This document shows positions 2,990 to 22,294 of a stretch of 35,841 bases of DNA, one piece after another. Made by a program: the position numbers and the translations under genes. The notes under the pieces are model-generated. The model worked only from the letters and a program-made list of their open reading frames with translations. It was not told where the DNA came from and made no database searches. Within the stretch, counting starts at the first letter, position 1. Every line of letters begins with the position of its first letter. The stretch is from NCBI GenBank assembly GCA_937934185.1, contig CALHAB010000106.1, positions 1-35,841 of the forward strand. Direction: 5' to 3'. Origin of the DNA: an uncultured Ignavibacterium sp. GTDB lineage: Bacteria; Bacteroidota; Ignavibacteria; Ignavibacteriales; Ignavibacteriaceae.

Positions 2990-4318
2990 TTATTTCATCA
3001 GAATCATTTTTTTTGTTTCAACAAAAATTTGTTCCGTGCCTTTTGAAGAATTGGTTACACGAAGTTGATAGAAATATACTCCGCTTGGTAGAGACACGCC
3101 GCGGCGTGTCTCTACAGCGTTAAATTCAACCTCATATCTTCCAGCTTCTCTAAATTCGTCAACAAGCGTTGCTACTTCATTTCCTAGTATGTCATAAACT
3201 TTTAATGTTTGCCAACTGCTTACTGGCGACTGCCAACTAATCTTCGTGCCTGGATTAAATGGGTTCGGAAAATTTTGATATAAAATAAAGTTATTGGGAA
3301 CTTCAGAATATTGTTCATCATTTACATCAGTGATTGAGGAAAGATTTGTCCCGTCAAAAACCAATAATCGTCCAGTACCAACTTCACCCATCCAGATTTT
3401 GTTTTGATTATCAACTTTAAGTTCTGCGATAGATTCAGAGGTAAGATTTGAGTAAGAATAAATACTATCATTCCACAAGCAGGCAAAACCATTATCTGTA
3501 GCTATCCAAAGTTTTCCGTTTGAATCTTCATCAATAGCATTAATGAAATTGTTCGGAAGCGCAGAGTTTGATTGATTAAAATATCTGAAGTTATTGTTAT
3601 CAATCCATTCAACAAGTCCTTTATCGAATGTCCCTAACCATCTTTTTCCATTGCTGTCAATATAAAAACTATAAATCGCCTGAGTTTCAATTGATGAATT
3701 TGATGTATCGAGGATTACATAGGCAGAATCATTTTCTATCAGAATAAGTCCTTTGTTACTGCTGACAAAAACTGAATCACCTTTAATAAAAATTTTACCC
3801 GCTAAAATGTTTGCAGGAATATCTGAATTTGTAGCATCAAAAGTTTTCCAGCTACTGCTTGATTTGTTAAATCTGAATATTGGCGGAAATCCATAAATTG
3901 ATGAATGATAGATCGAAAGGTAAATCATATCATTTTTTGAAGCTAAGTCTGAATACTTGAGATATGAAGTTATATTAACCGGTAAAGAAATTACTGTCCA
4001 GTTTGAACCATCAAACTTGTACAGACTATTTTGCATAAATGCCCAAATGTTATCGTTATTATCCACACAACTGCTAATCCAATAAAAAGGGATATTGTAA
4101 ATTGAAGTCATATTCCAGATTTCAAGCGAACCATTATTATATCTTACTACATAAGACGAGTCGTAATTCCCAGTCAAAGCATAAACAACACGGTTTTGGG
4201 AATCGAAATCAATTGATTGAATTAGATTTGACTGTGGCTTTAGAATTATCGGACAAGTGATAATCAAAAACTGGGTTAACAGGAGAAATACTCGGAAATT
4301 TTTGAAAAATGCTTTCAT
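2990..4318 (-). CDS. Secreted beta-propeller-like protein with T9SS C-terminal sorting domain
   Basis: Repeated 'D.NGK.W.GT..GL' propeller-type motifs; C-term QNFPNPFNPGTKISWQSP...KKMILMK. ORF opens at 4381, but ATG at 4318 has a GGAGGTGAGT ribosome-binding site and a signal peptide. Confidence 0.75.
   Translation of the reverse strand: MKAFFKNFRVFLLLTQFLIITCPIILKPQSNLIQSIDFDSQNRVVYALTGNYDSSYVVRYNNGSLEIWNMTSIYNIPFYWISSCVDNNDNIWAFMQNSLYKFDGSNWTVISLPVNITSYLKYSDLASKNDMIYLSIYHSSIYGFPPIFRFNKSSSSWKTFDATNSDIPANILAGKIFIKGDSVFVSSNKGLILIENDSAYVILDTSNSSIETQAIYSFYIDSNGKRWLGTFDKGLVEWIDNNNFRYFNQSNSALPNNFINAIDEDSNGKLWIATDNGFACLWNDSIYSYSNLTSESIAELKVDNQNKIWMGEVGTGRLLVFDGTNLSSITDVNDEQYSEVPNNFILYQNFPNPFNPGTKISWQSPVSSWQTLKVYDILGNEVATLVDEFREAGRYEVEFNAVETRRGVSLPSGVYFYQLRVTNSSKGTEQIFVETKKMILMK
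3088..3115. repeat. Perfect 28-bp palindrome within the T9SS CTD coding sequence
   Basis: GTAGAGACACGCCGCGGCGTGTCTCTAC equals its own reverse complement; encodes (A)VETRRGVSLP. Confidence 0.9.
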
Positions 4319-4393
4319 ACTCACCTCCACAAAGTGGTTGATTTTCATATTAAATCTAACCTGAAAGAGATGAAAAATCAATAATAAAAAAGA

Positions 4394-20248: not shown

Positions 20249-22294
20249 ATGAAATACATTTTTACACTTCTGTTAATATTGTCCTCCAATATTTTATTCG
20301 CTCAGATTGATATCAGACAAATTTTTGAAAACAAAACTGAAGTTTATTTCCGTTTTGAAATTTCAGATCAAAGTGAACTTGATGTTCTGACAAACATTAT
20401 ATCAATTGATAATGTTGAAAAAGGCAAAACAGTTTATGCCTATGCTAACATCAGTGAGTTTGAAGAATTTCTTAAACTTAAATATGATTTCGAAATTTTG
20501 CCTAATCCTTCTTCGATCATTGAACCGGAGATGAGCAATAATATTGAAGATATTACTGCTTGGGATGTATATCCAACTTATGATGCATATGTCAACTTGA
20601 TGAATCAGTTTCAAACTAACTATCCACAGATTTGTAAATTAATTGATGCAGGAAATACAGTTCAGGGAAGAAAAATTTTATTTGTAAAAATTTCAGATAA
20701 TGTTAATCAAAGAGAAGCCGAACCTCAATTTATGTACACTTCAAGTATGCACGGCGATGAATTAACAGGTTATGTTTTGATGTTGAGATTAATTGATTCA
20801 CTGCTCTCTTCTTATGGAAATGATCCGAGAATTACAAATATGATTAACAATGCTGAAATCTGGATAAACCCTCTTGCTAATCCTGATGGAGCATACAGAA
20901 GCGGAAACAATACTGTAAGCGGCGCAACAAGATATAATTTTAACAATTACGATCTTAACCGAAACTTTCCTGACCCTGTTAATGGAGTTAATCCAAATCA
21001 ACAAGTTGAAACCACCAGATTCAGAACACTTCAGGAAGCGAACAACTTTGCTCTTATTGCTAACTTTCACGGTGGTGCTGAAGTAGTAAATTATCCCTGG
21101 GATACCTGGTCAAATACAGGAACAAATTCAAGAATTCACGCTGATCAAACCTGGTATCAGTTCATTTCAAGACTTTATGCAGACACCTGTCAGTTTTATT
21201 CACCATCAGGATATATGACTTATCTGAATAATGGAATTACAAATGGAGGTGCCTGGTATGTGATTCACGGCGGAAGACAGGATTACACAAACTGGTACAG
21301 GCACGGAAGGGAAGTAACAATTGAAATTTCAAACACAAAACTTCCACCTGCAGGTCAACTACCTTCTTTCTGGGAATATAACAAGCGATCATTCCTCAAT
21401 TACATCGAACATATTTTTTACGGAATAAATGGAGTTGTAACTGATACAGTTGGAAATCCTGTTCGCGCTAAGATTACAATTATCAGTCACGATTACGACA
21501 GTTCAGAAGTTTACTCTGATGCTGCAACTGGGTTTTATTCAAGAATGATTCAACCTGGTAATTATACTTTGAAATTTCAAGCTCCAGGATTTTTTGATTT
21601 CATCAGCAATCCTGTACAAATAAGTTCGTATTATTCAAGTATAAACTTTAATGTTGAGATGATACCTGTAGTCCCGATTCCGGTTGAACTTGTTTCTTTT
21701 GCAGCAAATGTTATTGATAACGATGTGCATCTCGAATGGACAACTGCTACTGAGACGAATAACAAAGGTTTTGAAATTCAGCGCTCTGTCATTCCGAGCG
21801 AAGCAAGAAAGCTTAGCTGGGAAATTATTGGTTTTGTTAATGGAAAAGGAACAACCACTGAACCTCAGAGATATTATTTTGTTGATAAAAGTTTAATTAA
21901 CGGATCTTATAGTTACAGACTCAAACAAATTGATTTCGACGGTTCTTTTAATTTATCTGATGAGATCGAAGTGAGTATAGAAAGTCCAAAAACCTTTTCT
22001 CTGGAACAGAATTATCCCAATCCATACAATCCCAGTACTAAGATCAGTTGGCAGTCGCCAGTTAGCAGTTGGCAAACATTAAAAGTTTATGACATACTTG
22101 GTAATGATGTAGCAACATTAGTTGATGAATATAGAAAGGCGGGAAGTTACGAAGTTGAATTTAACGCTGTAGAGACTCGCCGCGGCGTGTCTCTACCAAG
22201 CGGAATATATTTTTATCAGTTGCGTTTAGTTGATCCTTCGTCAAGCTCAGGACAAAATTTTGTAGAAACGAAGAAAATGATTTTAGCGAAATGA
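20249..22294 (+). CDS. M14 family zinc carboxypeptidase with T9SS C-terminal sorting domain
   Basis: YTSSMHGDELTGYVLMLRLID (HxxE), NPLANPDG, YNFNNYDLNRNFPD, ANFHGGAEVVNYPWD, EVTIEISN; C-term QNYPNPYNPSTKISWQ...KKMILAK. Confidence 0.9.
   Translation: MKYIFTLLLILSSNILFAQIDIRQIFENKTEVYFRFEISDQSELDVLTNIISIDNVEKGKTVYAYANISEFEEFLKLKYDFEILPNPSSIIEPEMSNNIEDITAWDVYPTYDAYVNLMNQFQTNYPQICKLIDAGNTVQGRKILFVKISDNVNQREAEPQFMYTSSMHGDELTGYVLMLRLIDSLLSSYGNDPRITNMINNAEIWINPLANPDGAYRSGNNTVSGATRYNFNNYDLNRNFPDPVNGVNPNQQVETTRFRTLQEANNFALIANFHGGAEVVNYPWDTWSNTGTNSRIHADQTWYQFISRLYADTCQFYSPSGYMTYLNNGITNGGAWYVIHGGRQDYTNWYRHGREVTIEISNTKLPPAGQLPSFWEYNKRSFLNYIEHIFYGINGVVTDTVGNPVRAKITIISHDYDSSEVYSDAATGFYSRMIQPGNYTLKFQAPGFFDFISNPVQISSYYSSINFNVEMIPVVPIPVELVSFAANVIDNDVHLEWTTATETNNKGFEIQRSVIPSEARKLSWEIIGFVNGKGTTTEPQRYYFVDKSLINGSYSYRLKQIDFDGSFNLSDEIEVSIESPKTFSLEQNYPNPYNPSTKISWQSPVSSWQTLKVYDILGNDVATLVDEYRKAGSYEVEFNAVETRRGVSLPSGIYFYQLRLVDPSSSSGQNFVETKKMILAK
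21787..21820. repeat. Candidate dispersed-repeat remnant inside the carboxypeptidase ORF (VIPSEARKLSW)
   Basis: TGTCATTCCGAGCGAAGCAAGAAAGCTTAGCTGG resembles, from memory, 'GTCATTCCGAGCGAAGC...' repeats common in Bacteroidota genomes. Only one copy in this window. Confidence 0.45.
22169..22196. repeat. 28-bp near-perfect palindrome, second copy, within T9SS CTD coding sequence
   Basis: GTAGAGACTCGCCGCGGCGTGTCTCTAC; one T-T mismatched pair; same in-frame peptide VETRRGVSLP. Confidence 0.9.

Follow-up and report, generated by a model that had tools for sequence, protein, structure and literature searches.

Repetitive extragenic palindromes (REPs) with a foot at each end, and REPs read in frame inside TnpA-REP subclass 2.4 genes, are described from Cyanobacteria and Bacteroidetes in one survey (Quentin et al., 2018; PMC6006769), and intragenic GTAG REPs have been reported as well (Di Nocera et al., 2013; PMC3733652). 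Here we compare these systems with a 28-bp palindrome in an uncultured Ignavibacterium sp. (assembly GCA_937934185.1), on the 35,841-nt stretch of contig CALHAB010000106.1 analyzed in full and hereafter called the window. The palindrome is translated within a C-terminal sorting domain (CTD) of the type IX secretion system (T9SS). From sequence comparisons, we read it as one copy of a dispersed double-foot GTAG REP, most likely spread by a REP-associated tyrosine transposase (RAYT) and persisting where in-frame protein loops tolerate it; we put the probability of this reading at roughly 0.86.

A sequence-only reading of the window had pointed to a GC-rich, perfect 28-bp palindrome, translated as VETRRGVSL between EFNA and PSGVYFYQL in a T9SS sorting domain, and closer analysis bore out each part of that description. 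The sequence at 3088-3115 is GTAGAGACACGCCGCGGCGTGTCTCTAC, with all 28 bases self-complementary and a GC content of 64%. On the minus strand, codons 3115-3089 of an open reading frame (ORF) at 2990-4381 encode VETRRGVSL, base 3088 begins the following proline codon, and the sorting domain of this ORF matches TIGR04183 at 27.3 bits (cut-off 23). At three or fewer mismatches the window holds two copies, against an expectation of 0 from shuffled sequences: the exact one and another at 22169-22196 with one mismatch, which the sequence-only reading had not reported. Both are translated in frame in T9SS type A sorting domains as EFNA-VETRRGVSL-PSG[VI]YFYQL, and the two domains score 27.3 and 24.2 bits, compared with 41.2 bits for a REP-free neighbor. 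The predicted RNA fold of the palindrome is strong (-27.4 kcal/mol, z -5.8), with GTAG paired with CTAC in the window copies. Read on either strand, the 28-mer has two open frames (VETxxxxSL and xRDxxxxVST) and one containing TAG; CTD copies take VETxxxxSL, while RAYT genes take both open frames. The features concerned are as follows.

3088..3115: perfectly palindromic 28-bp double-foot REP, recognized from sequence, family and empty site; its minus-strand translation in CTD loop A is VETRRGVSL(P)
2990..4381, minus strand: 463-aa ORF with a Reg_prop propeller repeat and a REP-bearing T9SS type A sorting domain
3041..3271, minus strand: T9SS type A sorting domain (TIGR04183), its REP situated where a loop joins predicted strands 53-60 and 73-83
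22169..22196: second REP copy, one mismatch, in-frame VETRRGVSL, same CTD loop
20249..22294, plus strand: 681-aa zinc carboxypeptidase (Peptidase_M14) with a T9SS sorting domain carrying the second REP
22013..22225, plus strand: T9SS type A sorting domain of the M14 protein

In related genomes the palindrome belongs to a large family. Across 79 genomes of the genus, family and order, the pattern GTAGRGRC-N6-18-GYCYCTAC gave 316 matches, compared with 15 for its reversed control, and 51 of the 79 carry the family; in a phylum-wide sample, 77 of 297 genomes had matches. Length is exactly 28 bp in 132 of 139 distinct copies examined. The ends (GTAGRGRC/GYCYCTAC) are constant, while the 12 central bases vary both between and within genomes and are still palindromic, as in ACGCCGCGGCGT, GGGATATATCCC, AACTCATGAGTT and GATGCATGCATC. 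The exact 28-mer occurs in ten stretches of a named genome collection, which belong to Ignavibacteriaceae bacterium SJ115, Ignavibacteriae bacterium NAT134 and three further metagenome-assembled genomes (two carrying the label Bacteroidota/Bacteroidetes and one Acetofilamentum); a search of a plasmid collection gave no match. These copies have the layout of a double-foot REP, one long hairpin that starts 5′ with GT[AG]G and closes 3′ with the reverse complement of that foot, and they are multi-copy and dispersed, as are the REPs of subclass 2.4. Profiling the flanks of the 139 copies showed AT-rich DNA and no obvious target motif. A version with a TTAC foot, GTAGRGAC-N12-GTCYTTAC, is plentiful in some genomes (34 in G055, 16 in G032 and 12 in G038). 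The idea that this C-to-T change in the right foot marks uncuttable RAYT-internal copies was rejected, as TTAC-foot copies are widespread and dispersed, some of them lying between genes.

Within the Ignavibacterium genome itself, pattern searches, which miss decayed copies, recovered at least 12. Ten match GTAGAGAC-N6-24-GTCTCTAC, for which the reversed control gives 0, and two more end in TTAC rather than CTAC. Five of the 12 lie in open CTDs (contigs C106, twice, C159, C60 and C220). One truncates a CTD: on contig C222 the palindrome sits at the same place, its GTAG frame yields a TAG stop, and the domain ends at LLNL. The remaining six lie outside open CTDs: four belong to a longer intergenic cassette that is itself repeated, one is found a short way downstream of a CTD gene, and one, with a diverged center, lies between genes. 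Intergenic and CTD-internal copies, which the sequence-only reading had proposed to count, therefore coexist. The genome's 109 CTDs make up about 0.9% of its length, and five of 12 copies in open CTDs is a large excess (P ~5e-8 if copies are independent, which they may not be).

A link to RAYTs, likewise proposed for checking, emerged in the same order of bacteria, where RAYT genes both carry and flank the same palindrome. Six loci selected solely for the palindrome (L033, L036, L057, L086, L096 and L117) had it within a transposase gene. The transposase proteins tested match NF047646, the model for REP-associated tyrosine transposases, with E-values of 1e-15 to 1e-19 and scores below its 80-bit cut-off, and the sole PDB sequence match of the RAYT alignment was TnpA-REP 4er8. 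With one such protein as query, relatives were found in 47 of the 79 genomes. Among 67 RAYT genes, 25 contain the palindrome, and 29 have it internally or within 500 bp. The internal copy comes after the HUH motif (MPNHxHGIIIIN-VETGHAPSLQ-...); in an AlphaFold model (mean pLDDT 81) it falls in a low-confidence segment, residues 87-117, which links the HUH strand to the helix that follows. Locus L086 has three identical copies, upstream of, inside and downstream of its RAYT gene, and internal and flanking centers agree in four of the seven genes that have both (permutation p 0.0025). One copy from the Ignavibacterium genome (contig C70) is identical to the RAYT-internal copy at L227 of genome G064. 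Palindromes are commoner in genomes with a RAYT (Fisher p 0.002, rank correlation 0.56, without correction for phylogeny). REPs that flank the RAYT gene and also lie in frame inside it, between the HuH and Y motifs, are the mark of subclass 2.4, and relatives show this arrangement. In RAYT alignment A2, N78, H79, H81, W143, Q144, Y164, I165 and N168 are invariant; its last motif varies as YIxxN[PA], the subclass 2.4 motifs being NH[IFV]H, WQ and YIxNNP. These comparisons suggest that RAYTs mobilized the copies, and did so by transposition.

The strongest matches to PF01797 (IS200-like Y1_Tnp) were rejected as mobilizers: one unrelated palindrome lay near the 60 loci examined, and the linked enzymes are the weaker-scoring RAYT group. 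Two RAYT genes (L244, 1230-1802; L265, 1002-1703) encode tandem REP-like peptide (VETGHA repeated; VEEQNSVKTQN...VETQNFASLH), and these runs look like part of a translated palindrome amplified within the gene. On contig C32 of the Ignavibacterium genome (L053, 1-3420), a 1140-aa open frame joins a Y1_Tnp HUH domain (residues 299-376) in frame to a downstream Eco57I-type restriction-modification methylase (537-788), and SREASDT repeats separate the two; it looks like a transposase domain captured in a methylase gene.

Orthologous and paralogous CTDs that lack the palindrome were also found. In a sister species (G005), the ortholog of ORF 2990-4381 has no REP and reads FNA-ST-LPSG; the syntenic region around it spans 17.8 kb, with 82% nucleotide identity. 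Its empty site is AATGCA-AGTACA-TTACCAAGCGG, and the window has AACGCT-GTAGAGACACGCCGCGGCGTGTCT-CTACCAAGCGG; the right REP foot coincides in part with a TAC that the host DNA already has at the empty site. The sequence-only reading had estimated the palindrome-bearing domain to be about six residues longer than a REP-free one, and this holds against the true ortholog (+18 nt); CTD loop length does, however, vary naturally. In a second pair (contig C220, 79% identity over 898 aa) the Ignavibacterium loop carries the REP, and the G005 loop differs and is apparently a heptad-like repeat run. For the carboxypeptidase the REP is missing in four orthologs; loop length varies widely, and the loop in G005 is equally long and unrelated.

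The palindrome occupies predicted loops. AlphaFold models the CTD of ORF 2990-4381 as a seven-stranded beta fold (mean pLDDT 85), in which VETRRGVSL (residues 62-70) sits within a loop, residues 61-72, that connects strands 53-60 and 73-83; strand-strand turns are also the location of loop B (residues 25-27) and of a third insert (about 84-88). In-frame palindromes were found in loop A (between EFNA and PSGVYFY), loop B (between IPN and VTLKIYD) and an FN3 loop (between GFEIERS and WETIGF). Strict DNA patterns, with the CTAC foot for loop A, were applied to 164 genomes of the order, and gave eight CTAC-foot copies in loop A, of six center types, in five genomes of three genera, and four copies in loop B with three centers in four genomes. 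Because different centers occupy the same loop, arrival there appears to have been repeated. Some CTDs have palindromes in both loops (L324). Among 30 TTAC-foot copies sampled one per genome, 15 lie in CTDs (one, L339, assigned there by eye because of its SGIYLYQL tail) and four in RAYTs.

Other dispersed repeats, recognized by eye, appear to be translated in frame in loops A and B of CTDs of the genus, including PNEVRNL/PNGVRNL types, RQAQ types, heptad AGTTGGC runs and GNRQPALPSG. Such unrelated repeats in the same loops favor loop tolerance over strict targeting by one transposase, as far as can be judged from sequence, and we infer that the excess of palindromes in CTDs likewise reflects tolerance. 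Loop A of a CTD on contig C1 of the Ignavibacterium genome (L272, near 1606) has GTAGGACAAACTTCCAGTTTGTC, a 23-nt single-foot GTAG hairpin translated as VGQTSSLS and a different REP-like type. In G005, loop B of one CTD (L066) is extended in frame by a long insert, VILSLSKDDRDDVTLRQAQSDRK, which resembles an RQAQ-type repeat in the form of an inverted dimer.

Several results weigh against the reading of a RAYT-spread element. The assembly (86% complete) yielded no RAYT of this group, its sole remote match lying inside a methylase ORF. The statistics that tie palindromes to RAYTs across genomes ignore phylogeny. The abundant centers of G012 and G037 differ from the intact RAYT-internal center found there, and four of the six copies outside CTDs in the Ignavibacterium genome share the one cassette and are not independent. 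At the empty site, 24 nt replace 6 (net +18 nt), which is not a clean 28-bp addition. A simple 28-bp insertion is unproven, and the loop may have been replaced locally or altered by gene conversion.

How the CTD copies came to lie where they do could conceivably be explained in other ways. Within one genome, they may have spread chiefly by gene conversion or duplication of sorting domains after few original REP insertions, a tentative explanation that we rate below even odds. The five copies in open CTDs share loop A, a center type and near-alike flanks (EAGRYEVEFNA...LPSGIYFY), and the 109 CTDs are paralogs whose DNA is conserved to either side of the loop. Yet other genera have different centers in that loop, loop B and the FN3 loop are also occupied, and in two ortholog pairs only the loop changed while the rest remained orthologous, so that any converted tract was very short at most. 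It is unlikely that a RAYT directs insertion to the CTD loop, placing a 24-nt unit directly 5′ of a host TTAC (Leu-Pro TTACCN before SGVYFY). The empty site does have TTACCAAGC exactly at the start of the REP foot, two CTD copies in the Ignavibacterium genome end in TTAC, TTAC-foot copies are over-represented in CTDs (15/30 vs 3/29 sampled CTAC-foot copies; Fisher p 0.0015), and IS200/IS605 transposases pick short cleavage and target sites via guide tetranucleotides (PMC8266576). However, the change of CTA to TTA is silent for leucine and favored in AT-rich genes, which would give the same pattern; TTAC-foot copies are also intergenic, a single clean empty site was seen, and short repeats with no known RAYT link pile up in the same loops, as tolerance would predict. 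An extension of this idea, which we consider more doubtful still, makes the CTD loops a true landing pad, where a 24-nt hairpin arrives 5′ of TTAC/CTAC, transposase and tag are mutually adapted and translated REPs continually diversify the tag family.

Retention of the palindrome as an RNA hairpin that regulates its host genes would fit the strong predicted fold; it is nevertheless highly improbable, given that copies lie near the 3′ ends of unrelated coding regions, are missing in orthologs and have many centers, and that no conserved gene context was found beyond CTDs and RAYTs. An ancestral CTD codon pattern, maintained through descent or because the peptide is under selection, could account for the shared position in several CTDs of the Ignavibacterium genome. 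This candidate, to which we give almost no credence, is refuted by the intergenic copies and the empty site; RAYT copies, varied centers at one site and use of other frames elsewhere also speak against it. The palindrome is thus not confined to vertically inherited CTDs at one site, the circumstance under which the sequence-only reading would have given up the idea of an inserted element.

If the palindrome is indeed a RAYT-spread REP, a mechanism can be proposed. A non-autonomous hairpin of 24-28 nt would spread through single-stranded DNA by a RAYT/TnpA-REP resembling subclass 2.4, and could enter coding DNA without ending translation, since two of three frames are stop-free on either strand. 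It would persist where the frame is kept and a loop tolerates extra residues, and a REP-bearing protein presumably stays functional. In these genomes the commonest tolerant places would be the variable loops of T9SS CTDs, along with the loop after the RAYT's HUH motif. Frame-shifted or stop-bearing copies, such as that on C222, would mark dying genes or be lost.

Further repeats and a neighboring gene were found in the window. The 675-aa protein encoded at 713-2740 has a dockerin type I domain and, in addition, a T9SS sorting domain that lacks a REP. The M14 ORF (20249-22294) has three more apparent in-frame repeats, SVIPSEARKLS (21785-21817), SWQSPVSSWQ (22046-22075) and DPSSSSGQ (22232-22255). 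The remaining features are:

3209..3238, minus strand: heptad-like repeat (AGTTGGC)n in CTD loop B, translated SWQSPVSSWQ, a further short repeat within the REP-bearing domain
22046..22075, plus strand: M14 CTD loop B, with the heptad-like repeat also present at 3209..3238
22232..22255, plus strand: in-frame 24-bp insert GATCCTTCGTCAAGCTCAGGACAA in the third loop of the CTD, translated DPSSSSGQ and missing in four orthologs

These observations would make the palindrome a case of a mobile DNA repeat translated repeatedly in one domain common to many exported proteins. T9SS sorting domains may accordingly serve as a natural experiment that shows which loops of a protein can accommodate foreign peptides, and insertions whose orthologous sites are empty as a way to study REP insertion, which is still poorly understood. 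They also carry a warning that CTD alignments include translated mobile DNA, as the lower TIGR04183 scores of the REP-bearing domains illustrate. A search of open-licence papers for REPs together with T9SS found nothing relevant. The kind of element is already known; what appears to be new is its recurrent colonization of T9SS sorting domains.

The sequence-only reading had proposed an inserted element tolerated in a surface loop and likened it to Rickettsia palindromic elements. The former proposal is supported; the likeness is superseded, the nearest described relatives being double-foot GTAG REPs of TnpA-REP subclass 2.4. As in Rickettsia, a palindromic repeat is translated in frame in unrelated proteins. 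However, RPE-4/6 are CGTC-tagged, RPE-1 is longer, and neither has a linked RAYT (PMC3733652), whereas the present element is 28 bp long, has GTAG ends and is RAYT-linked. With GTAG-tagged REPs (PMC3733652) it shares the GTAG end, a short hairpin, dispersal, the RAYT link and some copies in ORFs. There, GTAG is an unpaired tag at one end, while in the window copies it is paired with CTAC, which sets them apart from canonical GTAG REPs; TTAC-foot copies elsewhere come closer. The intragenic cases stressed in that work concern DNA repair genes, and those described here secretion tags. The double-foot REPs of subclass 2.4 also occur in Bacteroidetes, and the insert in those transposases is predicted to be a peripheral loop (PMC6006769). 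Three points separate the present case from the accessible text of that report: many copies lie in T9SS CTD loops, which that text does not mention, a TTAC-foot version coexists, and the palindrome occurs in an assembly without such a RAYT.
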